Source: Deltaproteobacteria bacterium (GTDB lineage: Bacteria; Myxococcota_A; UBA796; UBA9615). Taken from it: a DNA stretch of 34,647 nucleotides. Position numbers and translations under genes: made by a program. The notes under the pieces were generated by a model. That model did no database searches. It was not told the DNA's origin and saw only the letters and a program-made list of their open reading frames with translations. The stretch is from the NCBI GenBank assembly GCA_023954745.1, contig JAGSHC010000040.1, positions 1 to 34,647 on the forward strand, in the 5' to 3' direction. Positions 8,494 to 32,063 of this stretch are shown piece by piece (the stretch's first letter is position 1; each line of letters begins with the position of its first letter).

Positions 8494-9912
8494 CTAGTCG
8501 CGCACCGTCACCATGGCCATCATCCCGGCCTCGGCGTGCTCGAGGATGTGGCAGTGCACCATCCAGTCGCCCGGGTTCTCGAAGGACGCCGCGATGCGCA
8601 CGGTCTCGAAGCCCCGGACGAGGACGGTGTCCCGGAGGCCCGGCTGCTCGACCGGATCCCCGTCGATCCCGAGCACCGAGAACCACTGCCCGTGCAGGTG
8701 GAACGGGTGCTCCATGCCGAGGTCGTTCGTGATGTCGATGACCTGGATCTCGTCCCGGTCCACGGTCCAGTCGTCGTAGTCGGGCCAGGAGCGGCCGTTC
8801 ATCGTGAAGACGATGTCGCCATTGTCGTTGTACCCGCTGAACTCCACGACCTGGTTCACCGTGTCGTCCATCGTTCGGTCCGGCACCCGCATCGTGGGGT
8901 CTGCCGTGTGCCCGGCGGCCCCGATCGGCGTCAGCTCTCCCCCGGGGGGACGCACTCGGACTCCTTGGATGGCGTCGTCGGTGACACCACCGTTGCCATC
9001 GGAGACGAGGACCACGAAGTTCATCTCGCCCTGGGTCTCGCCGTCCGCCAGCCGGACCTCGAGCTCGGCCCGCGCCCCCACCGGGAGCTCCAGCTCGTCG
9101 ATGGTCCGCACCCACGCCTGAGGCCACAGACCTGCGTCCGCACCAATCTCCCGCACCTCGAGACCTCGGAACTCGAGCTGGAGGGTGCGCGCGTTGGCGG
9201 TGTTCACGAGGCGCCAGCGCTCCACAGACCCCGGGACCATGTCGACGCGGGGGGCGTCGCTGCTCCCGTTCACGAGCAGCACGTTGCCGGCGCGCCCGTG
9301 CATGATGTCCATCCCCGCCGTGGCGTGGTCCGCGATGGAGCCGTCGGAGTCCAGACGGACGTCGTCGAGGACGAACATGCGATCTGCGTCCACCTCGGGG
9401 CGCATCTCCGGCGCCTCATGGACGACGAAGGCACCGTAGAGGCCCGCCTCGACTTGCACGTTCGACCGGACGTGGGGGTGGTACCAGAAGGTGCCCGCCT
9501 CCGGTGGCGTGAACTCGTAGGTGAAGGTCTCTCCCGGCTGAATGGCCACGAGGCTGCCCATCACCACGCCGTCCATCTCCGCGGCGATCCTCAGTCCGTG
9601 CCAGTGCACGGTGGTCGGCTCGTCGAGCTGGTTGGTCACGTGGACCTTGACCCGATCTCCCACGTTCGCCTGGAGGAGCGGCCCGGGGCTGAGCTTGTTG
9701 AACGTCCACATCCGCGTGGACTGCCCCTCGAGGAGCTCCAGATCCTCCTTCTCCATCTGCATCTCGTACTCGACGACGCCGTCGGTCGGATCGAGGTCCT
9801 CGAGAGGGACGAGCCCTTCGACGGTGGGGAACCCTGCCGGAGCCTCGGGAGTTGGCTCCGAGGGGCAGGCGGTCAGCAGGGGAAGGAGGAGCAGTGGGAG
9901 GAAGCGTCGCAT
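8494..9912 (-). CDS. Multicopper oxidase (laccase-like), lipid-anchored
   Basis: A 472-residue three-cupredoxin-domain multicopper oxidase. All copper sites are visible: HWHG (103-106), WYHPH (143-147), HPFHLHG (402-408) and HCHILEHAEAGM, with the type 1 ligands Cys454 and His459 and Met464 as axial ligand. Such enzymes oxidise phenols or metal ions such as Cu(I) or Mn(II) and reduce O2 to water. The leader ends in a lipobox LLTAC (Cys16), so it should be anchored by lipid on the outer side of a membrane, unlike the usual soluble Tat-exported laccases. AAGGA precedes ATG 9912. A copper-exporting ATPase is present 16 kb away, but there is no direct linkage. The Met axial ligand fits a moderate-potential enzyme such as CotA or CueO. 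Confidence 0.93.
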   Translation of the reverse strand: MRRFLPLLLLPLLTACPSEPTPEAPAGFPTVEGLVPLEDLDPTDGVVEYEMQMEKEDLELLEGQSTRMWTFNKLSPGPLLQANVGDRVKVHVTNQLDEPTTVHWHGLRIAAEMDGVVMGSLVAIQPGETFTYEFTPPEAGTFWYHPHVRSNVQVEAGLYGAFVVHEAPEMRPEVDADRMFVLDDVRLDSDGSIADHATAGMDIMHGRAGNVLLVNGSSDAPRVDMVPGSVERWRLVNTANARTLQLEFRGLEVREIGADAGLWPQAWVRTIDELELPVGARAELEVRLADGETQGEMNFVVLVSDGNGGVTDDAIQGVRVRPPGGELTPIGAAGHTADPTMRVPDRTMDDTVNQVVEFSGYNDNGDIVFTMNGRSWPDYDDWTVDRDEIQVIDITNDLGMEHPFHLHGQWFSVLGIDGDPVEQPGLRDTVLVRGFETVRIAASFENPGDWMVHCHILEHAEAGMMAMVTVRD

Positions 9913-10197: not shown

Positions 10198-13100
10198 GTG
10201 CGCACTCTCCCCCTCGTCCTGCTCGCCCTGCCCCTGTCCTGGCTCCCCGCCTGCGGCGACGGGAACTTCACGTCCTCGAACCGCGCCCCGGCAGTGCGCT
10301 TCATCGCCCCGACCGACGGCGCTCCGGCGCCTCTCGGCGAGAGTCTCTCCGTCTGTGCCCTCGTCGACGACCCCGACTCCGCCCAGGACCTCGCCGACCT
10401 CCAGATCGTGCTGACCTCGGACCGGGACGGCGTCCTCTGGTCGTCCGACTCCGGCCCCGGCGCGCTCGACGTGCCCTGCGGGTCCGAGGGCAACGTCTCC
10501 ATCACCGTGGACGCCCTCACCGAAGGCCCCCACGTCCTCCAGCTGCTCGCCTTCGACCCACTGGGGGCCTCGGCCACCGACCAGATCAGCGTCCCCCTCG
10601 TGGGCCCCGACAACGACGTCCCCACCTGCACCTTCCTGTCGCCGGAGCCCGGCACGGAGGTCCCCGACGACGAGGCGGTCAGCGTCTCGGCCCAGGTCAG
10701 CGACGACCTCGACGACCCCCGCGACCTCGTCCTCACCTGGTCCTCCAGCGTGGACGGCCCGCTCGAGGAGGGCAGCGCCGACGCCACCGGCCTCGCCTCC
10801 GAGTCCTTCGAGGACCTCACCCCCGGGGAGCACTACCTCGTCCTCACCGCCGTCGACTCCCGCTCCGGCGCGGGCGCCTGCGGTGTCGCGGTCACCGTGC
10901 TCGAGTGCGTCGACGCGGACGGCGACGGGGTCGAGAACTGCGACGGCGACTGCGACGACGACGAGGAGACCGTCTATCCCGGCGCCCCCGAGGTCGCCGA
11001 CGGCCTCGACAACGACTGCAACGGCGACATCGACGACGGCACCGTCCTCACCGACGACGACGGCGACGGCTTCGCCGAGTTTCAAGGCGACTGCGACGAC
11101 GGCGACGTCACGGTCTACCCCGGCGCCCCGGAGGACGGCGGCTTCGGCACCGACGACCCCAACGCCGTCGACGACAACTGCAACGGCACCGTGGACGAGG
11201 GCACGACGGGCTACGACGACGACGGCGACGGCTACTGCGAGGGCACCGCCCCCCTGGGGTGCACCGATGGGTCTACGCCGGGCGACTGCGTCGATGCGGA
11301 CGCGACCATCGCCCCGGGCGTGATCGAGCTCGTGTGCGACGGCATCGACGACGACTGCGACGGCCTCGCCGACGACGCGCCGGACGACGACGCAGACGGC
11401 TTCGACCTGTGCGACCCCGCGGAGCCCGGCGACACCGACGGCCTCGCCATCGACTGCCTCGACGGCAACGCCACCGTGAACCCCGGGGCCACCGAGGTGG
11501 TCTGCGACGGCGTCGATCAGGACTGCGACGGCTCGGCGGACGAAGCGCCCGACGGGGACGCGGACGGCTACGACGCCTGCCCCTCTGCCGCCGCCGGCGA
11601 CTCCGACGGCCTCCCCGAGGACTGCGACGACTCCGACCCCGCCATCGCGCCCGGCACCCCCGAGCTGCCCGACGGCGTCGACCAGGACTGCGATGGAGTC
11701 GTCGACGAAGGCACCACCGCCTACGACGACGACGGGGACGGCTTCTGCGAGGCCGCCTGCACGGACGGCTCCACCCCCGGGGACTGCGACGACGGCACCC
11801 CGGTCGTCTACCCCGGCGCCCCCGAGCTCACCGACGGACTCGACAACGACTGCGACGGCGACGTGGACGACGGCACCGCCCTCTTCGACGACGACGGCGA
11901 CGGGTTCTCCGAGGCCCAGCTCGACTGCGACGACGCCGACCCCACCGTCTACCCGGGCGCCATTGAGCTCCCTGACGGGCTGGACAACGACTGTGACGGC
12001 ATTGTGGACGAGGGCACCGCCGCGTTCGATGACGACCTCGACGGCTTCAGCGAAAACGCCGGGGACTGCGACGACGCCGACGCCTCCGTCTTCCCCGGCG
12101 CCGTCGAGGGCATCTGCGACGGCGTCGACCAGAACTGCTCCCCCGGCGACGAGGCCCCGGACGCCGACACGGACGGATACGACGCCTGCGCGCCCACGGA
12201 CCCCGGCGACGGGGACGGCCTCGCCATCGACTGCGACGACGGAGCGGCCTCCATCTCGCCCGGCGCGACCGAGGTGGTGTGCGACGGGGTCGACCAGGAC
12301 TGCGACGGGTTCGGCGACGACGCCCCGGACGTGGACAACGACGGGGTGGACGTCTGCGCGCCGTCCGCCGCGGGGGACGTGGACGGACTGCCCGCCGACT
12401 GCGACGACGCCGACCCCGCCAACGCCCCCGGCAACCCCGAGGTCATCGACTCCGCCGACAATGACTGCGACGGCTTGATCGACGAGGGAACCACCGCCGC
12501 GGACGACGACGGGGATGGGTACTGCGAGGTGGGCTGCACCGACGGCTCGGTCGCCGGCGACTGCGACGACACCAACCCCACCGTCTACCCCGGCGCCCCC
12601 GAGATCATCGACGGGCTGGACAACGACTGCGACAACGACGTGGACGACGGGACCGCGGTGTTCGACGACGACGGCGACGGGCTCTCCGAAGCCGCCGGCG
12701 ACTGCAACGACGCCGTGCCCACCACCTTCCCTGGCGCACCGGAGGACGGCGGCGCGGGCACCAACCTCGGCGACGGAGTGGACAACGACTGCGACGGCTT
12801 CGTGGACGAGGGCACGCTCAGCGTGGACGACGACGGCGACGGGTACTGCGAGGCGTCGTGCACGGACGGGACCACCGCCGGCGACTGCGACGACGCCGAC
12901 TTCCTGGCGAACCCCGGGGTCGACGAGCTGTGCTCCGACGGAGTGGACAACGACTGCGACGGCCTCGTGGACGTGCCCGACAACGACGGCGACAGCTTCG
13001 TCGACGCCCTCTGCGGCGGCAACGACTGCGACGACGGCGACGCGCTGGTCTACCCCGGCGCCACGGAGATCTTCGACACCGCCGACAACGACTGCGACGG

Positions 13101-13626
13101 GGACTACGACGAGTTCTTCATCAGCCCCGGGATGCTGGTCATCAGCGAGATCATGAAGAACCCCGACGCCGTCACGGACAGCGCGGGCGAGTACTTCGAG
13201 GTCTACAACCCCGGGCCGGCGGCCATCAACATGAACGGCTGGGACGTCTACGACGATGGGGGGAACGCGTTCGTCGTCACGTCCGACGTCATCGTGGGAC
13301 CCGGCGACTACGTGGCCCTCGGGACCTTCGACGACTTCTCGGGCAACGGCGGCTACCTGCCCGCCTTCCAGTACGGCTACTCCGCGGTGGGCGGCATGCA
13401 GCTGGGCAACGGCACCGACGAGGTCGTGCTCGATCACATGGGCGTCGAGATTGACCGGGTGGACTACAACGACGGCGCCTTCCCCGACCCCACCGGCCGC
13501 AGCCTCGAGCTCGGCGCGTCCAGTCTCACGGCGACCGCGAACGACGTGGGCAGCAACTGGTGCGCGGCCACGACGCCCATGCCGGGTGGGGACGACGGCA
13601 CCCCCGGGGCGCCCAACGGCTGCTGA
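10198..13626 (+). CDS. Large MopE-like Asp/Cys repeat lipoprotein with C-terminal lamin-tail domain
   Basis: A 1142-residue lipoprotein starting at GTG 10198, with signal and lipobox (LSWLPAC). Residues about 30-235 look like two Ig-like domains. Residues about 240-975 hold 14 repeats of the MopE-type putative metal-binding motif (GDCDDxDxxVYPGAPE, then DGxDNDCDGxxDEGT and often DDDGDG). They come in recurring subtypes, and the order of repeats 3-7 is echoed by 8-12. The C-terminal 165 residues form a lamin-tail domain (VISEIMKNP, GEYFEVYNP, INMNGWDVYD, GTPGAPNGC). MopE of Methylococcus binds copper, but repeats like these are widespread in Myxococcota surface proteins and more likely bind calcium or support disulfide-linked stalks. 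The role is probably surface adhesion or scaffold. It is monocistronic. Confidence 0.88.
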   Translation: MRTLPLVLLALPLSWLPACGDGNFTSSNRAPAVRFIAPTDGAPAPLGESLSVCALVDDPDSAQDLADLQIVLTSDRDGVLWSSDSGPGALDVPCGSEGNVSITVDALTEGPHVLQLLAFDPLGASATDQISVPLVGPDNDVPTCTFLSPEPGTEVPDDEAVSVSAQVSDDLDDPRDLVLTWSSSVDGPLEEGSADATGLASESFEDLTPGEHYLVLTAVDSRSGAGACGVAVTVLECVDADGDGVENCDGDCDDDEETVYPGAPEVADGLDNDCNGDIDDGTVLTDDDGDGFAEFQGDCDDGDVTVYPGAPEDGGFGTDDPNAVDDNCNGTVDEGTTGYDDDGDGYCEGTAPLGCTDGSTPGDCVDADATIAPGVIELVCDGIDDDCDGLADDAPDDDADGFDLCDPAEPGDTDGLAIDCLDGNATVNPGATEVVCDGVDQDCDGSADEAPDGDADGYDACPSAAAGDSDGLPEDCDDSDPAIAPGTPELPDGVDQDCDGVVDEGTTAYDDDGDGFCEAACTDGSTPGDCDDGTPVVYPGAPELTDGLDNDCDGDVDDGTALFDDDGDGFSEAQLDCDDADPTVYPGAIELPDGLDNDCDGIVDEGTAAFDDDLDGFSENAGDCDDADASVFPGAVEGICDGVDQNCSPGDEAPDADTDGYDACAPTDPGDGDGLAIDCDDGAASISPGATEVVCDGVDQDCDGFGDDAPDVDNDGVDVCAPSAAGDVDGLPADCDDADPANAPGNPEVIDSADNDCDGLIDEGTTAADDDGDGYCEVGCTDGSVAGDCDDTNPTVYPGAPEIIDGLDNDCDNDVDDGTAVFDDDGDGLSEAAGDCNDAVPTTFPGAPEDGGAGTNLGDGVDNDCDGFVDEGTLSVDDDGDGYCEASCTDGTTAGDCDDADFLANPGVDELCSDGVDNDCDGLVDVPDNDGDSFVDALCGGNDCDDGDALVYPGATEIFDTADNDCDGDYDEFFISPGMLVISEIMKNPDAVTDSAGEYFEVYNPGPAAINMNGWDVYDDGGNAFVVTSDVIVGPGDYVALGTFDDFSGNGGYLPAFQYGYSAVGGMQLGNGTDEVVLDHMGVEIDRVDYNDGAFPDPTGRSLELGASSLTATANDVGSNWCAATTPMPGGDDGTPGAPNGC

Positions 13627-13684: not shown

Positions 13685-13876
13685 CGGCTGGGCCCCGACC
13701 CGGCGGATGGTCGAGCCAAGCGGGTCGACTACACCGAACGCGGCCGGGCCCTCGTCGCCCGCGCAGTGACGCACATCCGCGATGTGGAAGCAGAGTGGCG
13801 CGCCCAGCTCGGAGAGAGAGCATACGACCAGCTCCGTGCCGGGCTCGAGGCGCTGGCGGGGGCGTCGATCGACGAC
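13685..13876 (+). pseudogene. C-terminal remnant of a MarR-type winged-helix regulator
   Basis: The plus frame gives GPDPADGRAKRVDYTERGRA, followed by LVARAVTHIRDVEAEWRAQL and YDQLRAGLEAL. This is the wing (DPxDGRAKxVxxTExGR) and the dimerisation helix of MarR-family regulators. The helix-turn-helix and everything before it are missing; upstream of 13685 the frame loses the pattern within a few codons of the MopE-like stop. No start codon precedes the remnant in a sensible place (the first is GTG 13766, inside the helix). The frame has lost its own stop and runs on into the SOUL gene. Confidence 0.6.
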
Positions 13877-13950
13877 TCTCGAGGCGAAACCGCCCCGCGC
13901 GCCGGGCCCCCACCAAAAAGGTCAAAACGCCCGGAGTTCGCCACCAAAAT

Positions 13951-13974
13951 CGCCCATTACGCCCATTACGCCCA
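13951..13974 (+). repeat. Short tandem repeat, 9-base unit
   Basis: The unit CGCCCATTA occurs twice and is followed by a third partial copy, CGCCCA (13951-13974), in the locally AT-richer stretch 35 bases ahead of the SOUL gene start. It may overlap a promoter or operator; nothing stronger can be said. Confidence 0.5.
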
Positions 13975-14008
13975 GGCGTGGCCTAGAGTCGAGACCCAGG
14001 AGGTCCTC

Positions 14009-14617
14009 TTGACTCATCGCCGAACTCTCACCTTGCTCGCCTTTCTCCTCCTCCTCGCCGCTGGGACAGCCATGGCCTCGTATGACGAACCTGCGTACAC
14101 CGTCGTAGACCTCCGACCCGGCTACGAAGTCCGCCAGTACGCTCCCCACATCGTCGCCGAAGTGACGACCCGCGGGAGCTACAAGGCGTCGTCCTCGGCT
14201 GCCTTCCGCTTGCTGGCCAACTACATCTTCGGCGGGAATCAGGCCCCGGACGGGGCGGGCTCGAAGAGGATGAACATGACCGTGCCGGTCACCGGCACTC
14301 CGCAGGACGCTGACCAGAACGAGTACGTCTGGACCTTCTACATGGAGCCCAGCTACACGCTCGACGCGCTTCCGACCCCGAACGATGGTCGGGTCCGCCT
14401 CGTCGAGGTTCCGGCACGCCTGGTCGCAGTCAAGCGGTACTCCGGGCGTACGAGCGAGGCCAATTACCACGCCGCGCGCGACTCCCTGCGCATGGACCTG
14501 GCCAATGACGGCGTGGAGACCATCGGCGTCACCACGAACGCCGTCTACAACGGGCCGTGGACGCTGCCGGCGCTCCGGCGGAACGAGGTCTTGCAGCCGG
14601 TCTCGTCGACTCGGTGA
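14009..14617 (+). CDS. SOUL family heme-binding-like protein, secreted
   Basis: The SOUL/HBP fold is shown by YTVVDLRPGYEVRQYAPHIV, AAFRLLANYIFGGN, MNMTVPVTG and the tail TNAVYNGPWTLPALRRNEV. These proteins are about 200 residues and bind heme or related tetrapyrroles or hydrophobic ligands. I choose TTG 14009 (202 residues) because AGGAGG (13998-14003) sits just ahead of it and it yields a proper Sec signal (THRRTL, then LLAFLLLLAAGTAMA). The same frame is open upstream to GTG 13766, but that part is the MarR remnant and not a natural N-terminus. The product should be periplasmic. It is convergent with the kinase gene that ends at 14725. Confidence 0.85.
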   Translation: MTHRRTLTLLAFLLLLAAGTAMASYDEPAYTVVDLRPGYEVRQYAPHIVAEVTTRGSYKASSSAAFRLLANYIFGGNQAPDGAGSKRMNMTVPVTGTPQDADQNEYVWTFYMEPSYTLDALPTPNDGRVRLVEVPARLVAVKRYSGRTSEANYHAARDSLRMDLANDGVETIGVTTNAVYNGPWTLPALRRNEVLQPVSSTR

Positions 14618-14724: not shown

Positions 14725-17700
14725 TCAGCGCATGTGGAGAAGCTCCTCCAGATGCTCCGCCGTCGGGCGCGTCGGCACCAGCTGCTCTGCCCGCTCGATG
14801 ACCGCTTCGTCAGTCGCCTCGACCACGACCAGCACCGTCCCCTCCCCCGCGACGACCTTCGTCCCGTCCGGGCTCCAGGTCAGGGAGTTGGTCCCTTCGG
14901 TCAAGGAGACTGAGGTCCGGAGACCTTCCTCCCAGTCCCACATCACCAGCGTCCGGTCTCGCCCAACGGTCGCCACGCGCCGCCCCGTCGGGTGGAACTC
15001 GGCGTCCATCACCCGCCCCGTGTGCGCCGTGTGCTCCGCCAGCTTGGTCCCGTCCCGCCCGGACACCCGGACGACAGTGTCCATCGAGGACGTAAACAGG
15101 ACGTCTCCCTCTGGCGACCAGAGGAGGTGGGTGATCTCATCTCCATGGGGAGCCGTGCGGCCGCGGGGCTCGAGCGTCCGTGCGTCCCACAGCCGAGCGA
15201 AGGGCTCCCCCCCTGCCGTCGCGAGCAGCTCTCCCGTCGGATCGAAGCGAACCGCCCGGTCGCCGGAGTCGTGGGTGGAGGTCCCCAGCACTTCGCCGTC
15301 CCGGCTCCAGAGCCAGACGACGCCATTGCTCCCCACCGCAGCCAATCTCTGACCATCGGGGCTCCACTGGAGCGCGAGCGCCGAGAGGAAGACGGCGTCG
15401 CCCAGCGGACGCACAGAGTCCGCTGCGCGGTCCCAGACCATGATCCGCCCGTCATCCTTGTCCACGGCCGCGAGCGACTCCCCATCGGGGCTCCACGCGA
15501 ACACCCCATCGAGCGCCCCATCGTCGAGGAACGAGCGGAGCAGGAACCCTTCGCGGTCGAGGATCACGACGCCACGCTTCCCCACGAGCGTGACGTTCCT
15601 CCCTTTCGGCGACAGCCGGATCTTCGAACCCACCGCGAGCCGGTCGTCAGCGATCAGCTTCAGGAGTGCGAACCGTGGACTCCACAGGCCAACGGAGTTC
15701 CCTCCCTGAGTCACGTAGCCCTTGTCGTCCCCCACAATCGACAACAGGTCCGCCCGATGGACATGGCTTGCTCGATGCCCGTAGTCACCGTCCGGGTAGA
15801 GGAACAAGCGCCCATCGTCACCCGCGACTGCGATGGCGCCTCCGCCAGGCCGAGCCGCGAGCGCGCGGATGCCGCCGCCCGGCCCCGAGAACGCACGGGC
15901 TCCCCCAAGCCCGGCCTTGGCCTCGGGCCCGTCAGGGAGCGTGCCGATCACCACGATGTCGTCGTACTCGCCTCCCTGGAAGATCCACCGGCCATCCGCC
16001 GACCACACCGCGTAGCTTGCGTAGATGCCCGCCCGCAGGGTGACGTCGTCCTCGTCGAGTCGCACCACGGTCGTCGACGAGGTGTTCTCCCCCTGGACCA
16101 ACAACGCCCTGCCGTCAGCCCTCCAGTCGAGCCACCTCAGACTCGCCCCCTCCGCCTGCTCGAAGACCTTCGTGGGGGCCGCCTCGCCCCTACCAATCAG
16201 GTGGACCGAAGAGAAGTTGGCCAGGGCGAGCTGGGTCCGGTCGGGCGAGAGAGCGCAGGCCCGGACCTGACCCCACTCCGGTGGCGCCGCCACGCCGCCC
16301 CGCTCCAGGAGCAGCCCCGGGTCCCAAAACCGAACCGTCCCGTTGTTGTGCACGGTCACCCAGCCGCTCGGCAGGGCCCCCACCGCGAAGACGCCTGGCC
16401 GACTCGCGTCGGCGAACGGAACCCTCGCGAGGGTTGCTCCCTCGAGGTCGTACATGCCCACCACCCCATCCCAGGATCCGCTCAGCAAGCGAGCCCCGTC
16501 GTCGGAGAAGGCCAAGGAGCTGACCGACCCCTCGTGGGCGTCGATCTGCACGCGCAAGGCGCCTTCAGCGGAGAACAGTCGAATCGCTCCGTCGGAGTCG
16601 CCGATGGCCACAACGGTCCCATCGGGCGAGAACGCCGCGGCGGAGGCCTCCGCTGCCTCCACCGGAAACACGGCGAGGCTTCGACCGCCCGCGTCCCACA
16701 AGCGGGCGGTCGCGTCGCTCCCCCGGGTGAGGACGGTCCCACCGTCCTGAGACCAGATGACCCCCAGGACCGGCGCCGTGTGCCCCACTCCGACCGCGAT
16801 CTCGTCCTGGCCGTACACGGACGTGTACAGGGTGTCCCTCGCCAGGTCCGGTGCAACGAGCCAGGCTTCACGCGCCAGCTGGACCGCAAGATCGACTCGG
16901 TTCTTCCCCCGCCAAGCCTCCGCCGCGGCGAGCATCGTCTGGACCCGGGACGTCTCCGCTGAGGCGACCGCCCGCTGCTCGGCCTCCTCCGCGAGCGCTC
17001 GGGCGCCCTCCGCCCGCTGCCATTGGACCGTGGACCAGACGCTGACCAGGGCGAGCACGACGGCCGCGATGATCAGCGCGAGGCGTTGGCTCGTGCGGCG
17101 CCGTTGGGACGCGCGGCGGGACGCCTCGACAAAGATGAGCTCAACGGAGGTAAACGAAGGCTGGGAGCGGTCAATCCACCGCATGAGGTCGGCCAGGACG
17201 TCCCCTCGCCAAAGGAGGTCGGGGCTCCGGCTTCGCTGGTCCCACTCCTCCACGGCACGCCGCAGCGAGTGCTGCATGGTCTGGGACTCGACGTCCTCGG
17301 ACAGCCACCGCTGCAGCTGCCCCCAGTGGAGCACCAGCGACTCGTGGGCAAGCTCGACCATCGCTCCCCCACCTCCATCCGCTTCCCGCGTGGAGAGGAG
17401 GCGTGCGGCGAGCAGCTGGTCAATCAAGAGCGCGGAGCCCGCCCGGTCCGTCCCGAGGGACTCGAGATCCGACCGCAGACATGGCTCGCGGGCGCCCTCT
17501 GGCCCGACGAGGCGCAGAACGATGCGGCGAACCTCCATGCGAGCTTCCGCGTCGAGGGCCGCCACCACCTGATCGGCGTGGGTGGTCATCGCCCCCTCGA
17601 CCCCGCCGATCGCCCGGTAGGCCGCCCATGTCAGGGTGCGGCTCTCCTCATCCCTCCGCTCCCACAGCAGAGAACCAGCGAACTGGATGAGCGGCAAGGC

Positions 17701-19428
17701 GACGGACTTGCCATCCACGGCCGCGACGATCTCATGGACCAGTTCGTCGTCCTCGAAGGCGTACTCTGCACCCGCGACAGACTCCAAGAGGATCTCCCGC
17801 AAGGCTCCTGCGTCCGGCGCTCGGAGCACGACCAGATGTTCCAACGCCCGCCGCGCCTTGAAGCTCTCCCCCAGCCTTCCAAGGAAGTCCTCACGAAGAG
17901 TCACGACGACGCGGACCGACCCTTCGGGATCGTCCCCCGCGCTCGCCAGGGCATCGAGGAACGCGACCCGCTCGTCCGGGTCGGGCACGAGCGTCCCGAT
18001 CTCCTCGAGCTGGTCGACGGCCAGCAGCACGTTCGAGCGGGTCTTCGCTGCGAGGTCCTGCAGGTGCAGGGCGAGCCGGCCCGGAGCATCCCGGAGGCCA
18101 GCGGCGATGTCGTCCACCCCCTCTCGGACCACACCGGAAGACAACCTCCCGGACTGGGAGTAGGTCGTCTGGGCGCGCACGAGTCGGCGGGCGAGAGCCC
18201 GAAGCGGCTCCCGCGTCGGCCGCATCGAGAGCACCGTGTAGGGCCGTCCCTCCCGCAACCGGGGCACCACGCCTCCGTAGAGCAACGAGGACTTCCCAGC
18301 GCCCGACGGACCGACCATGGCGACGAGCGCCTCGCCGCGCAGGCGCTCCACGAGCAGCGCAATCTCCCGCTCCCGTCCGAAGAAGGACGACGCGTGCTCC
18401 TCTCGGAACGCCGACAGTCCACGGAATGGGTCCTGGGGTCCGCGCGGTCGCGAAGGCTGGCCAAACCTCCGGAGCTCCCGCGCCACATCCTCGGCGAGAG
18501 GGCGCGCCCTTGGGTCCTTTGCAAGACAGCGAGCGACGATCGACACGAACGCGTCGGGCTTGCCCTCGAGCGTCGGGGCGGACTCGTCCGGGTCGGAGAT
18601 CGCGTGACCCAGCGGGAACAGCCCGAGTTCTTCGTATTCCGCGTAGGGACGGACGCCGGCGACCATCTCGAAGAGCATCACGCCCAGCGCCCACACATCC
18701 GAGGCCGGTTGGGGATCCGAGGCGTACTGCTCGGGTGACATGTAGTTCGGTGTCCCCGCGAGCGCCGTCCCCTGGGGCATCACGCCGGGGGACAAGGGGA
18801 CTTCGGTGGTCTGCCCCGATCGGACCACCACCTGGTCCACCTCGGGGGGCTCAGAAAAGGACGTGGGAGCGCGCTCGTCGTCCAGGGTACGGGCCAGCCC
18901 GAAGTCCAGGACGCGCAAGCGCCCATCCTCGGGGATGATGACGTTCTCCGGCTTGAGGTCCCGGTGCAGAACACTGGCCGCGTGAGCGACGGCCAGGGCG
19001 TCCGCGATCGTTGCCCCGACGCGCGCGGCCTCCACCACGCCGAGGGGCCCAGCGGAGAGACGCGAGCGGAACGACTGTCCGGGCAGGTACTCCAGGGCGA
19101 TCCACGGCGCTCCGGCGTGGGTACCTGTGTCGTGCACTGTGATGATGTTCGGGTGGTTGAACCGGGCGGTGGTCCTCGCCTCTCGCAAGAAGCGCTCGAC
19201 GGAGCCTTCGCCAGCCACCCGGTCGGGCCGGATGGTCTTGAGGGCGACCCGCCGCCCGAGGTCTACGTCCCGAGCCGCATACACGCGGCCCATCCCCCCC
19301 TCCCCCAGGAGCCGCTCCACACGGTATCGACCGACGAGCGTCCCCGGTTCGAGGGCCTCTCTCCCGTCGATGGACGACGAAGCCGCCCCGCGGAGGTCGG
19401 CGGCACTCTCGACAGGCGGCTTGAGCAA
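14725..19428 (-). CDS. Ser/Thr protein kinase fused to STAND-type ATPase, TM segment and WD40 propellers
   Basis: A 1567-residue signalling protein. The kinase spans about residues 30-320, with the glycine loop LGEGGMGRVY, Lys64 (VALK), catalytic HRDLKPEN with Asp157, DFG with Asp175 and GTPNYMSPEQY. A STAND/nSTAND1-like ATPase follows (FFGREREIALLVERL, Walker A GPSGAGKS 373-380, Walker B LLAVDQLEE with Asp472, then VVVTLREDF). One transmembrane helix lies near 779-798 (RLALIIAAVVLALVSVW), then a short coiled segment. The C-terminal 690 residues are WD40 repeats (GHTAPVLGVIWSQDGGTVLT and many more), enough for two propellers. The kinase and ATPase would be cytoplasmic and the propellers on the far side of the membrane if the helix spans once. 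The start is TTG 19428, with no ATG before the kinase. The trigger and substrates are unknown. Confidence 0.92.
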   Translation of the reverse strand: MLKPPVESAADLRGAASSSIDGREALEPGTLVGRYRVERLLGEGGMGRVYAARDVDLGRRVALKTIRPDRVAGEGSVERFLREARTTARFNHPNIITVHDTGTHAGAPWIALEYLPGQSFRSRLSAGPLGVVEAARVGATIADALAVAHAASVLHRDLKPENVIIPEDGRLRVLDFGLARTLDDERAPTSFSEPPEVDQVVVRSGQTTEVPLSPGVMPQGTALAGTPNYMSPEQYASDPQPASDVWALGVMLFEMVAGVRPYAEYEELGLFPLGHAISDPDESAPTLEGKPDAFVSIVARCLAKDPRARPLAEDVARELRRFGQPSRPRGPQDPFRGLSAFREEHASSFFGREREIALLVERLRGEALVAMVGPSGAGKSSLLYGGVVPRLREGRPYTVLSMRPTREPLRALARRLVRAQTTYSQSGRLSSGVVREGVDDIAAGLRDAPGRLALHLQDLAAKTRSNVLLAVDQLEEIGTLVPDPDERVAFLDALASAGDDPEGSVRVVVTLREDFLGRLGESFKARRALEHLVVLRAPDAGALREILLESVAGAEYAFEDDELVHEIVAAVDGKSVALPLIQFAGSLLWERRDEESRTLTWAAYRAIGGVEGAMTTHADQVVAALDAEARMEVRRIVLRLVGPEGAREPCLRSDLESLGTDRAGSALLIDQLLAARLLSTREADGGGGAMVELAHESLVLHWGQLQRWLSEDVESQTMQHSLRRAVEEWDQRSRSPDLLWRGDVLADLMRWIDRSQPSFTSVELIFVEASRRASQRRRTSQRLALIIAAVVLALVSVWSTVQWQRAEGARALAEEAEQRAVASAETSRVQTMLAAAEAWRGKNRVDLAVQLAREAWLVAPDLARDTLYTSVYGQDEIAVGVGHTAPVLGVIWSQDGGTVLTRGSDATARLWDAGGRSLAVFPVEAAEASAAAFSPDGTVVAIGDSDGAIRLFSAEGALRVQIDAHEGSVSSLAFSDDGARLLSGSWDGVVGMYDLEGATLARVPFADASRPGVFAVGALPSGWVTVHNNGTVRFWDPGLLLERGGVAAPPEWGQVRACALSPDRTQLALANFSSVHLIGRGEAAPTKVFEQAEGASLRWLDWRADGRALLVQGENTSSTTVVRLDEDDVTLRAGIYASYAVWSADGRWIFQGGEYDDIVVIGTLPDGPEAKAGLGGARAFSGPGGGIRALAARPGGGAIAVAGDDGRLFLYPDGDYGHRASHVHRADLLSIVGDDKGYVTQGGNSVGLWSPRFALLKLIADDRLAVGSKIRLSPKGRNVTLVGKRGVVILDREGFLLRSFLDDGALDGVFAWSPDGESLAAVDKDDGRIMVWDRAADSVRPLGDAVFLSALALQWSPDGQRLAAVGSNGVVWLWSRDGEVLGTSTHDSGDRAVRFDPTGELLATAGGEPFARLWDARTLEPRGRTAPHGDEITHLLWSPEGDVLFTSSMDTVVRVSGRDGTKLAEHTAHTGRVMDAEFHPTGRRVATVGRDRTLVMWDWEEGLRTSVSLTEGTNSLTWSPDGTKVVAGEGTVLVVVEATDEAVIERAEQLVPTRPTAEHLEELLHMR

Positions 19429-19575: not shown

Positions 19576-20478
19576 TCAGAGCAGTGCCCACGTGTACTCC
19601 GACCGGCCCAGGAGCGAGTCAAGACGAAGCCGAGCTTCGGCCGCGAGGTGGGGCGACCGATCGCCCGAGGCGGCGGCCCAGGCGATCACGTCGAGTTCGT
19701 ACACGGCGCAGAGGGCATCGAAGCTCGGGCTACCACTGGGGTCCACACCGTACGCGTCGACCAACGCAGACCACTCGTGCTCTGGGGTCCCGTATCGCCG
19801 GACTCCAGTGGCGAGGACGGCGAGGTCCCAGCTCGCAGGTCCGACCCCAGACGACTCCAAGTCGACGAAGACGGGACCCGATGTGGTGAGAATCACGTTG
19901 TCCGTGTGCGGATCTCCGTGCACCAGGACCTCGCCGAGCGGGTCGGAGCTCGCGAAGTCGGACCATTGAGCGGCGAGCCCGACGGCGCGGCGACGCACCT
20001 CCGCGAGGTCGGCTGCAAGCTCCGGCAAAGAGGCTTCGTCGAGCCAGTGGAAGAGCAGGCGAAAGGGGTCGAAGGTCGGCCCCGCTCCGGGGGACAAGCC
20101 TGCGGTGCGTTCGTGCAGTTGGCGGAGGGCTGCGCCGTGCGCCGCGGGCGGGAGCCGCTCGCCCGTGGGGATGAGCCGCTCGAGGAACATGACGGCGCCC
20201 CCGGGGCGGAGGACCGGCTGCCCTCGCGGCCCGACGATACGAACCACCGGGGCCCGCTGGCGCTCGCACAGACTGGCAACGTCGACCTGCCGCCGAGCGT
20301 GCTCGATGGCTTCAGGCCGCTCCACCCGGGCGATGACTCCCGCCAAGGGAAGGTCGACCAGAACGGAACCAGCGCTGCGGATGAGTGTCGCGCCAGCGGC
20401 ATCCAGCCCCTCCTCGGCCGCCACCTCGACGGCGGTCTCCATCGCGAGGAGAACCTCAGCATCGGTCCACAGGCCCAT
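19576..20478 (-). CDS. Aminoglycoside phosphotransferase-fold kinase (APH family)
   Basis: This 300-residue protein has the Brenner motif of the APH/choline-kinase fold, HGDPHTDN (187-194, catalytic Asp189, Asn194), and the metal-binding FVDLESSGVGPASWDLA (Asp206). AGGAG upstream of ATG 20478 supports this start; a longer frame from 20529 adds a cysteine-rich leader without family support. APH-fold enzymes phosphorylate small molecules such as aminoglycosides, homoserine, choline or macrolides, and the sequence does not tell which. Chromosomal, context-free members are often housekeeping kinases or fructosamine-kinase-like rather than resistance genes. It follows the kinase gene on the same strand but upstream of it, with a 147-base gap. 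Confidence 0.85.
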   Translation of the reverse strand: MGLWTDAEVLLAMETAVEVAAEEGLDAAGATLIRSAGSVLVDLPLAGVIARVERPEAIEHARRQVDVASLCERQRAPVVRIVGPRGQPVLRPGGAVMFLERLIPTGERLPPAAHGAALRQLHERTAGLSPGAGPTFDPFRLLFHWLDEASLPELAADLAEVRRRAVGLAAQWSDFASSDPLGEVLVHGDPHTDNVILTTSGPVFVDLESSGVGPASWDLAVLATGVRRYGTPEHEWSALVDAYGVDPSGSPSFDALCAVYELDVIAWAAASGDRSPHLAAEARLRLDSLLGRSEYTWALL

Positions 20479-20657
20479 TGGTAGATCTCCTAGCAGACAG
20501 GTCGCGCGGCGGCACGTCGGGCGGCACATCCGCTCTGCGTTGACAGTCCTGGTCCGGGGGCGACACGTCAGAGAGTGCCAGCGCCTGGCGGGGAGAACGG
20601 GCCACCGGTAGGGTGACGGTCAGAGGAGTGGACGTCCGCCACTCATGAAGGGGCCCA

Positions 20658-25552: not shown

Positions 25553-27814
25553 TCACAGCCGGACGGCGCGCAAGCGCAGGGCGTTGGTGACCACCGTGAC
25601 TGAGCTCAGCGCCATGGCGGCCGCCGCCCAGGCCGGGCCGATCTCGAGCCCCAGAGGCACCAGGATCCCCGCCGCGACGGGGATCATCAGCGCGTTGTAG
25701 GCAAACGCCCAGAACAGGTTCTGGCGCACGATCCGCAGCGTCGCGCGGCTCAGCCGGATCGCGCTTGGCACGCCCGCGAGGGCGCCTCCCACCAACGTGA
25801 GGTCCGAGGCCTCCATCGCAACGTCGGTCCCCGTCCCCAGGGCGATGCCGACGTCCGCCGCGGCGAGGGCCGGCGCGTCGTTCATTCCGTCCCCGACCAT
25901 GCCCACCACGCGTCCCTCGGCCCGGAGTCGGCGGACGTGCTCGAGCTTGCCCGCGGGGAGAAGGCCGCCGTGCACGCGGTCCGAGGGGATACCCACCGCA
26001 TCGGCGACGACCGAGGCAGCTCCAGGGTGATCGCCCGTCAGCAGATGGGGACGAACCCCCATCGCCGTGAGCTCGTCGAGGGCTGGCTTCGCCTCGGGGG
26101 ACAGGGTGTCCGAGGCCCCGAGGACCCCCGCGGCCCGGCCGTCCACCGCCACGAAGAGCAGGCTCTCCCCCCGCGAGGTGGGGCCCTGCCCCCGGGGCTC
26201 GAGCACATCCACGTCCACTCCTTCGTCGGCGAGGAAGCTCAGCCGCCCGATCAGTAGCTGCCTCCCCTCCACCTCCGCCCGCACGCCCTTGCCGGCGACC
26301 GCCTCGAAGGTCGAGGGAGGGGTGAGGGCGACACCGCGGGCCTCGGCTTCCTTGCGAACCGCGTCGGCGAGGGGGTGCTCGCTCGGCTGCTCGGCCCGGG
26401 CGACGAGGCTGAAGTCCACGTCAGGATCCAGGTCGATCGTCGCGAGCCTCGCCTCTCCCAGGGTCAGGGTGCCGGTCTTGTCGAAGATGACGTCGGTCAA
26501 GGCCTGCGCGCGCTCCAGAGCCGGTCCGCCACGAGCGAGAATCCCCATGCGGGCGCCCCTGCCCGTACCCACGAGGATGGCGGTGGGGGTCGCCAGTCCC
26601 AGGGCGCAGGGACAGGCGATGATCACCACCGTGGCGAAGCGCAGCACCGCAGTCTCCAGGGGCGCCCCGCCGAGCCACCACCCGAGCCCCACCACCACGG
26701 CGATGACGATCACCGTGGGGACGAACACCTCGGCCACGCGGTCGGCGAGCTGTTGCACGGGCGCCTGCTCGCTCTGGGCGCGGCGCAACATGCGGATCAC
26801 CTGCTCCAGGGCGGTGTCGGCGCCGACCGAGGTGGCGCGGACCACCAGGCGACCCGGTCCGTTGACGGTGCCGCCCATGACGGCGTCGCCGGGAGAGCGG
26901 TCCACCGGCATGGACTCCCCCGTCATCGCGGACTGGTCGACCGCGCTGTGTCCATCCGCGACCACGCCGTCCACGGCGAAGCGCTCTCCAGGACCCACCA
27001 CGACGCGGTCTCCCACCTCGAGGAGCTCCACAGGGACGCGCTCCTCTTGGCTGTCGCCCCGAAGGACCACGACCTCGTCCACGCGCAGGTCGAGCAGTCC
27101 GCGAATCGCCTCGCTGGCCCGCCCCTTAGCCCGGTTCTCGAGCCAGCGCCCCAGGAGGATGAAGGCCACGAGCATCGCGGCCCCGTCGAACCAGACCTCG
27201 CCCATGGGACCTGTGCGTGCGAGGACGACAGCGCTCCACAGCAGCGCGGTGCCGGTCCCCAGAGCCACGAGGGTGTCCATGGTGGAGCTGCGGTGCCGGA
27301 GCGCGGCCCAGGCACCCGCCCAGAAGGGGCCTCCGGCCCCAAAGACCACAGTCGCCGCGATGAGGCCCGCGCCGAGGCGCGCGGTCCAGGAGTGCATGGG
27401 CAGCCCGGGAAGCCAGCCCATGCTGAGGGCCATCACGAGCGCCGAACCTGCCACGGCGAGTCCGGCCCGCCACGCCCAGACCCGGTTCTCGGCCCGCTCC
27501 TCAGCGCGCAGGTGTTCCGCCTCGTCGGCCGCGCGGACATCGGGGCGCCGAGGAACGTCGAAGCCCGCGCCCTGGGCGAGGCGACGCACGTCTGCCAGCG
27601 CGAGCTGGGCGCCGGGATGCACCGTGACCGAGCCCGAGTGGGTGGCGTAGTTGACACTGGCGGCGTCGATGCCTTCGGCGCGGCCCAGGACCTTGCCGAG
27701 GCGGGCGGCGCACGATGCGCAAGTCATGCCCGTGACCGGGAACTCGAGGACGACGGACTCCGGTCGCATGCCGACCTCGTCGTGCGGAGCCGACGTGTCA
27801 GCGGGCTGGCTCAC
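25553..27814 (-). CDS. copA: Copper-exporting P1B-type ATPase
   Basis: A 753-residue heavy-metal pump. One N-terminal metal-binding domain carries GMTCASC (29-35). Then come the membrane helices, the actuator motif GESMP, the CPC motif of copper/silver pumps (Cys401-Pro-Cys403 in IIACPCALGLATP), the phosphorylated Asp445 in DKTGTLTLGE and the hinge GDGMNDAPAL (Asp642-Asp646). The last helices carry YNALMIPVAAG, a copper-site signature of the CopA subgroup. It moves Cu(I) out of the cytosol using ATP. The start is GTG 27814; ATG 27769 is a serious alternative and keeps the whole metal-binding domain. No CopZ chaperone or CueR/CsoR regulator adjoins it, so its control must lie elsewhere. Confidence 0.95.
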   Translation of the reverse strand: MSQPADTSAPHDEVGMRPESVVLEFPVTGMTCASCAARLGKVLGRAEGIDAASVNYATHSGSVTVHPGAQLALADVRRLAQGAGFDVPRRPDVRAADEAEHLRAEERAENRVWAWRAGLAVAGSALVMALSMGWLPGLPMHSWTARLGAGLIAATVVFGAGGPFWAGAWAALRHRSSTMDTLVALGTGTALLWSAVVLARTGPMGEVWFDGAAMLVAFILLGRWLENRAKGRASEAIRGLLDLRVDEVVVLRGDSQEERVPVELLEVGDRVVVGPGERFAVDGVVADGHSAVDQSAMTGESMPVDRSPGDAVMGGTVNGPGRLVVRATSVGADTALEQVIRMLRRAQSEQAPVQQLADRVAEVFVPTVIVIAVVVGLGWWLGGAPLETAVLRFATVVIIACPCALGLATPTAILVGTGRGARMGILARGGPALERAQALTDVIFDKTGTLTLGEARLATIDLDPDVDFSLVARAEQPSEHPLADAVRKEAEARGVALTPPSTFEAVAGKGVRAEVEGRQLLIGRLSFLADEGVDVDVLEPRGQGPTSRGESLLFVAVDGRAAGVLGASDTLSPEAKPALDELTAMGVRPHLLTGDHPGAASVVADAVGIPSDRVHGGLLPAGKLEHVRRLRAEGRVVGMVGDGMNDAPALAAADVGIALGTGTDVAMEASDLTLVGGALAGVPSAIRLSRATLRIVRQNLFWAFAYNALMIPVAAGILVPLGLEIGPAWAAAAMALSSVTVVTNALRLRAVRL

Positions 27815-29366: not shown

Positions 29367-29646
29367 AGCAGGGCACAGTCGAGGTCGTGCTGGAGCACAC
29401 CGTGGAAGCGAACGCGCCCCTCAGGGTCGTCTCCGCTGAGCGCGAGTTCGCTCTCGCCGCAGACCTGAGCCAGATGGAGAGCGTGTCCCAGCAGCGGGAA
29501 ACGTGGAGGGCCACAAGGGCGCCATCGCGCTCCCCCCACCACCGTCCTCACCGAACGGCCCCGTTGGACTATTGTCCACGACGTCAACGCGCGTCGTCCG
29601 GCTGCAGGAACGGAAGACGTCTTCACGAGCGAGGGGGAGCAGCCAG

Positions 29647-31017
29647 GTGATCCGTGCACTGATCGCCTCGCTCCGAGTCCCGGACGAGCACCGAGAAGCC
29701 TTCCGAAGGGAGTTGGCGAACAAACGCGGGCCCGGCCTCTGGACCATCGGGCTGCTGGGCACGGTGCTCTTCCCGTTGTTCTTGCTCCTCGACTGGTTCC
29801 TCTACCCTGAGGCCATCTGGCCGCTGGGGATTTCACGAGCGATCACCACCGGCCTCGGCGCGCTCTTCCTCATCGGGCTCCGCCTCACCGACAAGGCGGG
29901 CACGCTCCCGCAGCACAGTCACCGATTCGTCTGGCTCTTCGCGCTCATCTTCTGCGGCGGCCTCGACGCGGTCATCTACCACGCCGGCGGGATCGACACC
30001 CCTTACTACGCGGGGATGAACCTGGCGCTCATCGGCATCTCCGCGGCGATTCCGCTCCGGACCGGCCAGATGGCACTCCTGCTCGCAGCGATCGTGATCC
30101 AGCTGAACGTGCTCATGCTGACCCTGGGGACGGTCGAGGATCTGGACATGGCGCTCAACGCCAACTTCTTCCTCTGGTCGACGATGATCATCGGAGTCCT
30201 GGTCAACGCCACCGCGGTGCGGCTCCGCATCGTCGAGTTCCTCTCTCAGAAGCAGATCGAGATCGAGAAGGCCAAGAACGAGGAGTTGCTGCTCAACATC
30301 CTTCCTCACGAGGTCGCCAACGAGCTCAAAGCCCATGGGCGGGTCCGCGCAAGGCACATCAAGTCCTGCTCCATCCTCTTCTCGGACTTCGTGGGCTTCA
30401 CCAACATGTCTCGGCGGGTGGATCCCGCCGAGCTGGTCCACTCCCTCGACCGCGCCTTCAGCCACTTCGACGACATCATGGAGCGCCAAGGCCTGGAGAA
30501 GCTCAAGACCATTGGCGACGCCTACATGTGCGCCGGTGGTGTGCTGGGCGATCAGCCCGACCACCTCGTCTCGTGCGTGCTCGCGGGGCTGGAGATGCTG
30601 GATGTCCTCGAACACGAGGATATCCTCGCCCCCGACGGGAGCCGTTGGGAGATGCGCCTGGGCATCCACTGCGGCCCGGTCGTCGCCGGGGTCATCGGCA
30701 ACAAGAAGTTCGCCTACGACCTCTGGGGCGACACGGTGAACACCGCCGCCCGGATGGAGTCCACCGCGCAGCCCTCGAGCGTCAACATGGCCTCCGAGGT
30801 CTTCGACCTCATCCAAGAGTTCTTCGTCGGTGTGGATCGCGGGTTCATCCCGGTTCGCGGGAAGGGCCCGGTGTCCATGACCCGGCTGACCCGGCTCCGT
30901 CCCCGGTTTTCCCGAGATCAGTCGGGGCGCCAACCCAACGCCGCGTTCTTCGATGCCTTGGAGCGCTGGCTGAACAGCGGAAAGCACCTCAGGATGCCGC
31001 CGTCCGAACCCGACTAG
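29647..31017 (+). CDS. Membrane-anchored class III adenylate cyclase
   Basis: About 456 residues: six predicted membrane helices in the first 200, a linker helix (FLSQKQIEIEKAKNEELLLN, then ILPHEVANEL) and a C-terminal cyclase domain. Metal-binding Asp247 (SDFVGF) and Asp291 (KTIGDAYM), the adenine-choosing Lys287 and Asp358 (FAYDLWGD), and the transition-state residues Asn365 and Arg369 (VNTAAR) are all present, so it should make cAMP as a homodimer. GTG 29647 is chosen for its GGGGGAG upstream and because the earlier frame (from 29503) lacks family character. The upstream gap 29367-29646 has no clear gene. The six-helix sensor part is unlike a known sensory domain. It stands alone. Confidence 0.88.
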   Translation: MIRALIASLRVPDEHREAFRRELANKRGPGLWTIGLLGTVLFPLFLLLDWFLYPEAIWPLGISRAITTGLGALFLIGLRLTDKAGTLPQHSHRFVWLFALIFCGGLDAVIYHAGGIDTPYYAGMNLALIGISAAIPLRTGQMALLLAAIVIQLNVLMLTLGTVEDLDMALNANFFLWSTMIIGVLVNATAVRLRIVEFLSQKQIEIEKAKNEELLLNILPHEVANELKAHGRVRARHIKSCSILFSDFVGFTNMSRRVDPAELVHSLDRAFSHFDDIMERQGLEKLKTIGDAYMCAGGVLGDQPDHLVSCVLAGLEMLDVLEHEDILAPDGSRWEMRLGIHCGPVVAGVIGNKKFAYDLWGDTVNTAARMESTAQPSSVNMASEVFDLIQEFFVGVDRGFIPVRGKGPVSMTRLTRLRPRFSRDQSGRQPNAAFFDALERWLNSGKHLRMPPSEPD

Positions 31018-31208
31018 CTTCGAGCGGACGCCCCTCCGCGAGCCCCCCAACTGGACCACAACACGGTCAGGCACCACATCTGTTTCGGCAGCCGGGCCGG
31101 CGGAGCCGCCGTCAATCGGAGGCGGTGGCCGAGGAGACCAACGGAGCGCAGCGTCCCGCTCTTGCGGCTGTTAGCGTATGCATGGCCTGGTTGGGCCGGG
31201 GAGCGCTC

Positions 31209-32063
31209 ATGAGACGACTCGCATTCGCGCTGGCTCTACTGCTGGCAGGCTGTGCAAACGACGGGGACGGCGATGGCCTCGTCGACTCGCTCGAGGCGAG
31301 GCACGGCACGGACGTGGACAACCCCGACTCGGACGACGACGGTCTACCCGACGGCGACGAGGTGGCTCGCGGCACAGACCCGCTCGTGGCGGACACCGAC
31401 GGCGACGGATACGGGGACCGCCAGGAGGTCGTCGCCGGCACGGATCCTCTGGACGAAGCCAGCGTCATCTACACGGGAGGCTGGCCCTACTTCGAGGACA
31501 AGGACTCCCTCGAGGAGCCGGACGAGGACGAGATCGCGGACGTGGGGAGCCGGATCCCGCGGGTGACGGGCATCGACCAGTTCGGTGAGTTCGTAGACAT
31601 CTACGACTTCGCCGACAGCGAAGCCCCGACGGTCCTTCTGCTGGCTGGCGTGTGGTGAATCTGGTGCAGGAGCTACGGTTCGTGGCTCGCTGACGCAGAC
31701 GACATGGAAAACGGCATGTTCTGGGGTCAGCGTCAGTGGTTCGAGGAGTGGCCCGACGAGCTTCCCGAGATGATCCAGGACGGCGAGGTCCGCTGGATCA
31801 CCATCCTCGATGCCGGGGCTCCCGGCGTTCCCCCCGATGCTCTGGACGCAGCGCACTGGTACGGGCTGTACCCCAACCCCAACGTGCTGGTCATGACCGA
31901 TCCCGACGGCGCGATCCGCGACTGGATCGACCCTCCCCGCTATCCCACGATCTACCTGCTGTATGGCGATCTGACCGTGGCCATCCCGGAGCGGGAGTCG
32001 ACGTCGGGCGCTCTGTACTTCCTCCAGGAAGCCGGGTACGACCCGGATGAGATCGACTGGTGA
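31209..32063 (+). CDS. Candidate selenoprotein: Asp-repeat lipoprotein with thioredoxin-like UxxC domain
   Basis: The gene runs from ATG 31209 (GGGGAG at 31198-31203) to TGA 32061-32063, with one in-frame TGA at 31656-31658 read here as selenocysteine 150. The 284-residue product has a lipobox LLAGC (Cys15), three calcium-binding-type repeats (DGDGDGLVD, DSDDDGLPD, DTDGDGYGD; residues 18-70), a linker, and a thioredoxin-like domain from about residue 125. Its active site reads VW-Sec-IWC (Sec150, Cys153), the CxxC of thioredoxins with Sec in the first place. The cis-proline motif RYPT (Pro246) and DPDGAIRDW follow where expected. Conventional calling would give a 149-residue truncated protein plus an ORF at 31704-32063. 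It should be a lipid-anchored extracytoplasmic thiol/selenol oxidoreductase. The alternative is a nonsense mutation. Confidence 0.8.
31664..31696 (+). promoter_or_regulatory. Putative bacterial SECIS hairpin after the in-frame TGA
   Basis: A hairpin starts five bases after the TGA at 31656-31658. The upper stem pairs 31670-31676 with 31682-31688 (seven pairs, one of them U-G) around the loop GGUUC (31677-31681). After a bulged G (31689), 31667-31669 pair with 31690-31692. After a bulged A (31693), 31664-31666 pair with 31694-31696. The loop lies 18 bases after the TGA and opens with two Gs, as described for bacterial SECIS elements bound by SelB; E. coli fdhF has a GGUC loop. The hairpin lies wholly inside the coding frame. 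Confidence 0.7.

Follow-up and report, generated by a model that had tools for sequence, protein, structure and literature searches.

The open reading frame at positions 14725..19428 on the minus strand of the window, i.e. the whole 34,647-nucleotide stretch of DNA that was analysed, codes for a predicted protein of 1567 amino acids in which a kinase domain is followed by an nSTAND1 NTPase domain, a transmembrane helix and WD40 repeats (ORF and Pfam). The protein may be a single-pass inner-membrane receptor kinase which works from the outside in and is gated by a STAND switch, a reading to which we give about an even chance. The domain order, the catalytic motifs, the presence of one helix and a charge bias found throughout the family support, as the most likely topology, a kinase and NTPase inside the cell and propellers outside. 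The predicted relatives keep this membrane design, and the parts at both ends change.

Domain organization of the predicted protein

An earlier note on this DNA, in which the strand was not given, had described a kinase, a P-loop STAND-type ATPase, one helix and WD40 repeats, in that order, and the order was confirmed by Pfam, motif and hydropathy analyses. The ORF, its domains and its helix are not due to chance. Translation is read from a TTG at 19428, the sole ATG, GTG or TTG ahead of the kinase domain; the next start candidates, GTG (codon 37) and ATG (codon 46), both lie within the kinase. The GC content at third codon positions is 85 %.

The Hanks-type Ser/Thr kinase domain (aa 35-316; 18481..19326, minus strand; Pfam PF00069, 151 bits, cut-off 31.7) has the conserved Lys, HRD and DFG of such kinases, found in the motifs GEGGMGRV, VALK (aa 61-64, including K64), HRDLKPEN (aa 155-162) and DFG (aa 175-177). 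The NTPase domain (aa 334-736; 17221..18429, minus strand) belongs to nSTAND1: it matched Pfam PF20703 with 310 bits (cut-off 27.1) over nearly the full length of the model (positions 1-378 of 379), and a separate analysis put it at the same place. It carries GPSGAGKSS (Walker A, aa 373-381) and LLAVDQLEE (Walker B, aa 468-476). The single predicted transmembrane helix follows at aa 783-801 (17026..17082, minus strand; hydropathy, charge count and family conservation). A linker from the membrane to the propellers, aa 802-880 (16789..17025, minus strand), is placed by its position between the domains and is probably helical, as helices appeared in a low-confidence model.

The WD40 propeller region, aa about 881-1545 (14794..16788, minus strand), has space for two propellers. 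WD40 (PF00400) scored 151 bits against a cut-off of 27, so that both profile searches proposed in the earlier note, for nSTAND1 and for WD40, gave scores above the Pfam cut-offs; the repeats claimed there were found, over about 660 rather than about 690 amino acids. Blade-like matches span aa 888 to 1527, several of them weak. The C-terminal stretch, aa 1255-1567 (14728..15666, minus strand), was modelled from the single sequence as a propeller with 28 strands (pLDDT 77) and, together with the PF00400 score, identifies the region as WD40 propeller. A Foldseek search with these 313 amino acids returned WD40 propellers, the best being 5mzh (ODA16; TM 0.80 by query), with seven-bladed 7big (TM 0.72) and PkwA 5yzv (0.67-0.68) among further matches. 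In the model, the 28 strands suggest seven four-stranded blades for the second propeller, although the top fold match is 5mzh. A model of the entire propeller region by itself (757 aa) reached a mean pLDDT of 47 and a pTM of 0.35 and was dropped from the fold search.

Sampling of nSTAND1 relatives

Relatives were collected by genome searches for nSTAND1, and 55 regions were read. Together with the window, these make 56 loci: all 26 places of one search (the window gene included) and 30 regions from a second, which hold 34 of its 60 other places and were picked by score and open-frame length, not at random. The loci contain 61 ORFs including that of the window, and 59 were evaluable after two incomplete ones were dropped. 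A wider set adds two Archangium genomes and Actinomycetota (80 genomes searched, 11 with matches); the added loci end about 1500 bases past the nSTAND1 domain. It comprises 100 ORFs in 96 loci, and the 96 ORFs which extend far enough beyond nSTAND1 were used as rows of the helix analyses below. In a scan of genome contigs, five loci matched only within aa 7-325, the kinase part.

The predicted membrane helix

In the window protein, hydropathy over 19 residues reaches 2.59 at aa 783-801, compared with 1.41 in the second-best non-overlapping segment, and there are six Lys/Arg in the 15 residues before the segment and two in the 15 after it. A helix (hydropathy at least 1.8) was present in 57 of the 59 evaluable proteins, the window protein included, at a median of 53 aa past the end of nSTAND1, whereas this value was reached in only 9 of 909 random windows from the same proteins. 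Among proteins with a segment of at least 1.6, the NTPase flank was the richer in Lys/Arg in 55 of 58 (equal in two, reversed in one). Further segments of at least 1.8 were found on the C side in none of the 58 proteins and on the N side in five.

In the wider set a helix was present in 83 of 96 rows, with six borderline and seven without, and 80 of the 83 showed the Lys/Arg bias (two were equal, one reversed). When one representative was taken for each cluster of 50 % identity, a helix was found in 44 of 49, and the bias was seen in 42 of the 44 helix-bearing clusters (equal in one, reversed in one; sign test 1e-11). Among Actinomycetota, 16 of 17 evaluable proteins had the helix, all 16 with the bias in the same direction; among the 21 evaluable Archangium proteins the helix was present in 11, hydropathy was between 1.4 and 1.8 in five, and five lacked it. 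Second C-side segments occurred in the truncated loci of the wider set in L092 (1.80) and in the helix-less L090 (2.78). Of the seven helix-less members, four bear the labels kinase (L061, hydropathy 1.33), TIR, CHAT and other, one each, and the remaining three have no N-terminal domain. WD40 occurs in five of the seven (L068, L085, L087, L089 and L100), so WD40 alone is no guide to the membrane side, and STAND-linked WD40 can be cytosolic. Cys content, tried as a general marker of topology, did not separate the two sides (0.62 vs 0.74 per 100). An association of the helix with kinase outputs was not significant (22 of 23 kinase clusters anchored vs 22 of 26 others, p = 0.35).

According to the positive-inside rule, the Lys/Arg-rich flank of a membrane helix faces the cytosol. 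The observed bias therefore places both kinase and NTPase on the cytosolic side and the WD40 part outside, and, judged by hydropathy, charge and conservation, aa 783-801 behaves as a genuine single-pass anchor. By sequence, the protein is thus predicted to have one helix, a kinase inside and a sensor outside, as a single-pass receptor kinase has.

Further indication of the topology came from one relative, L039, with the order kinase, nSTAND1, helix, WD40, a Cys-rich stretch (aa 1565-1702, delimited by eye) and an FGE domain; of the 44 Cys in this protein, 40 are located past the helix. The Cys-rich module, which is known in this one nSTAND1 relative only, had 30 matches in the L039 genome, L039 itself included, and none in the four other genomes searched. 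Ten other ORFs of that genome that carry the module were considered, and nine of them open with a hydrophobic stretch that resembles a signal and has a Cys near its end, as judged by a lenient, home-made test; the lipobox pattern was present in seven of the nine, and the other two were accepted by eye. The stretch flagged in L141 was judged to be no signal, and an eleventh place (C507) was below the threshold. By these predicted signals the module is normally exported in the L039 genome, so the far side of the L039 helix would be outside the cytosol. The earlier note had placed sensor and outputs on opposite sides of the membrane if the helix spans once. The conserved helix position, the charge bias and the Cys-rich module agree with the predicted split and disfavour a buried helix, which the note had named as its counter-case.

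Variable ends around the nSTAND1-helix core

The N-terminal parts of the 100 ORFs were labelled as kinase (60), TIR (10), CHAT (8), HTH (4), caspase (2), BTAD (1), other (8) and absent or cut (7), the labels 'other' and 'none' being due in part to truncation. Representatives, except those of HTH, were confirmed with Pfam; outside these, TIR, CHAT, caspase and BTAD labels were given by similarity to the representatives, and HTH labels stand without a Pfam check. Kinase labels came from a home-made HMM, and a simple regular expression found the kinase motifs in 51 of the 60 labelled members and failed in nine, L093 and L096 among those without them. On an nSTAND1 tree of 96 rows, in which 29 of 93 inner branches are open, the kinase label changes six times (five forced by the starred branches), TIR four times and CHAT three times; the count of 16 changes for all eight output labels is inflated, as it arises in part from the truncated rows behind the labels 'other' and 'none'. 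The C-terminal parts included WD40, FGE-sulfatase and pentapeptide repeats. Two proteins of the same genus (L012 and L013, genome G001) have the order caspase-nSTAND1-helix-WD40. Pentapeptide repeats follow the helix in the kinase-labelled L059 and L060, with which L061-L064 cluster on the tree. The second nSTAND1 gene of the window's own genome (L051; G000:C415, 5187-7010) has its NTPase from aa 7, no N-terminal output domain and a helix, and its ORF runs off the contig.

Between the window protein and five relatives, C-side identity was 25-33 %, near the background of 25 % (from one pair), compared with 42-48 % for the kinase parts. Faster evolution of the sensor was nevertheless rejected: the C side is near background in distant relatives, yet close pairs showed no excess, with identities of output, STAND and C side of 93, 94 and 92 % (L026-L027) and of 56, 70 and 57 % (L024-L028). 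The low C-side identity fits changing sensors but also relaxed constraint.

Genomic neighbourhood and PADLOC matches

Pfam matched nine of 30 other ORFs in the window, in the classes alcohol dehydrogenase, multicopper oxidase, MopE repeats, SOUL, APH phosphotransferase, beta-lactamase-like, metal P-type ATPase, cyclase and TSP3 repeats. The nearest Pfam-matched flanks are a SOUL haem-binding protein (13766-14617, plus strand) and an APH-type phosphotransferase (19576-20529, minus strand). A 1142-aa protein (10198-13626, plus strand) has 13 MopE copper-binding-motif stretches and a lamin-tail domain by Pfam; similar ORFs (35-39 % over 420-742 aa) lie close to the nSTAND1 genes L054 and L058, making it the only window neighbour with relatives beside other nSTAND1 genes. 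With the multicopper oxidase (8494-9912, minus strand; Pfam) and the heavy-metal P-type ATPase (25553-27814, minus strand; Pfam), it may form a copper-handling neighbourhood. An ORF with bacterial TSP3 repeats was also identified by Pfam (30528-31658, plus strand).

PADLOC models matched one of 20 other window ORFs, some of which are perhaps not genes, and 19 had no match. The matched ORF, a class III adenylate/guanylate cyclase (29503-31017, plus strand) about 10 kb from the kinase-STAND gene, scored 168 bits with Pfam PF00211 and 52 bits with the PADLOC Pycsar cyclase model, and by these scores is probably an ordinary signalling cyclase. Among the best 25 of 34 PADLOC matches of the window protein itself, a HEAT-ARM model (aa 851-998, 66 bits) is the only one to fall outside the kinase region. 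The best stretches of PD-T4-6 and MAD6 lie within aa 16-345, and the NCBIfam MAD6 model scored 135 against a cut-off of 460. Membership of a known anti-phage system (PADLOC; MADS) was rejected, as no system-specific protein was found in the gene, among its listed matches, or beside it, among the 20 ORFs scanned. The neighbouring-gene survey called for in the earlier note revealed no conserved defence system across the 56 loci: kinases recurred in 15, a C39/ABC-like family (named by eye) in six, and other families in at most four, often between close relatives. The role in phage defence raised in that note thus found no direct support in PADLOC, NCBIfam or the neighbourhood.

Discussion

The favoured mechanism draws on how STAND proteins and receptor kinases are known to behave. 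A ligand, periplasmic or at the cell surface, would be bound by the propellers, and the signal would pass via the linker and the helix to the STAND NTPase, freeing it from autoinhibition. The NTPase would then exchange its nucleotide and oligomerise, gathering the kinase domains, which would phosphorylate one another and cytosolic targets. By analogy, ligand-triggered switching of the kinase is plausible, and we infer from the same analogy that STAND oligomerisation could drive the kinase.

TIR, caspase and CHAT are outputs typical of conflict systems, and their occurrence on the same nSTAND1-helix core, including two caspase proteins from the genus of the window itself, would fit an envelope-facing immune or cell-death receptor, in which the propellers detect phage, predator or rival-cell molecules and the kinase launches defence or suicide. 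The naming of nSTAND1 in a study of conflict systems (PMC8195603, in its available text) and the Pycsar match of the nearby cyclase point the same way. However, this cyclase fits the general cyclase domain far better, the other 19 of the 20 window ORFs scanned lack PADLOC matches, no defence neighbourhood is conserved, the protein's own listed PADLOC matches lie in the kinase region but for the HEAT-ARM model, its MAD6 score is below the NCBIfam cut-off, and HTH, BTAD and kinase outputs suit ordinary signalling equally; such a receptor is unlikely. A PknB-like receptor kinase, with STAND as assembly scaffold or brake only and WD40 as anchor to envelope partners, would agree with the Planctomycetota kinases and PkwA compared below, which combine kinase and WD40, the former with no NTPase, P-loop or ATPase in the accessible text (PMC11032199) and the latter with no space for STAND (PMC6805158, in part). 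The Walker motifs and the strong nSTAND1 match speak against it, as does the lower identity of the C side than of the kinase, in so far as this reflects changing sensors rather than relaxed constraint, and we regard this reading as improbable too.

The helix-less WD40 relatives would be expected if the hydrophobic segment were buried or peripheral and the propellers cytosolic, as in Apaf-1-like proteins. This is very unlikely for the window protein, as most members from two phyla share the position, hydropathy and charge asymmetry of the segment, and an exported-type Cys-rich module lies past the helix in L039.

In the reading favoured here, a gated receptor kinase, outputs and sensors vary while the nSTAND1-helix core stays the same, which suggests that this core serves generally as an outside-in relay. 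Whether nSTAND1 is mainly a transmembrane form of STAND, coupling varied extracytoplasmic sensors (WD40, FGE, Cys-rich) to varied cytosolic outputs (kinase, TIR, caspase, CHAT, HTH) in at least two phyla, and so a widespread equivalent of NLRs and the apoptosome that works from the outside in, appears evenly balanced. Characterised STAND and NLR-like proteins are mostly regarded as cytosolic sensors. If nSTAND1 were mainly transmembrane, STAND-gated responses could fire before an invader reaches the cytosol. With a conserved membrane helix separating switch from sensor, a large group of bacterial STAND proteins that are still uncharacterised would be receptors of the cell envelope, and the kinase read-out would allow a direct test of a STAND switch worked across a membrane.

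Comparison with known systems

PknB-type PASTA kinases also have a Hanks-type kinase inside and a sensor outside. The window protein differs from them in scoring 218 bits with the NCBIfam PASTA-kinase model (NF033483), well below its cut-off of 450, and no PASTA repeats were among the best 25 of its 37 Pfam matches. Kinase-WD40 proteins have long been known (PMC5587647, PMC6113231, PMC6805158, PMC2176072, PMC2877116, in the parts available). PkwA of Thermomonospora curvata likewise joins a kinase to a C-terminal seven-bladed WD40 propeller, and its structure 5yzv was among the fold matches; its propeller occupies residues 450-740 (PMC6805158, available part), leaving by arithmetic no space for the 400-aa STAND domain of the window protein.

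A kinase inside and WD40 outside were already predicted in Planctomycetota, where DeepTMHMM placed WD40, TPR or FGE in the periplasm past the one helix of single-pass Ser/Thr kinases (PMC11032199, accessible text). The window protein resembles these in having a predicted cytosolic kinase and one helix, followed by WD40 or, in relatives, FGE; it comes from another phylum and has an NTPase, while the accessible text of that paper contains no mention of NTPase, P-loop, ATPase or nSTAND. The order effector, NTPase and WD40 is shared with the metacaspases, for which caspase-NACHT-WD40, caspase-AAA-helix and caspase-two helices-FGE forms are described (PMC3501461, available part); these are neither nSTAND1 proteins nor kinases, and a helix between NTPase and WD40 is unmentioned in that part. 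Searches of the open-licence PMC literature returned no account of a conserved helix placed between nSTAND1 and its sensor.

The exchangeable ends, FGE included, resemble those of the nSTAND1 and NACHT conflict proteins, as far as the available parts of PMC8195603, in which the name nSTAND1 was given, and PMC10907252 describe them. In the latter, the nSTAND1 targets of DGR 6 are termed cytoplasmic, and periplasmic sensing is proposed for the STAND target of DGR 3, with NACHT and sensor both outside. Unlike either of these, the window protein is predicted to have its NTPase inside and its sensor outside.
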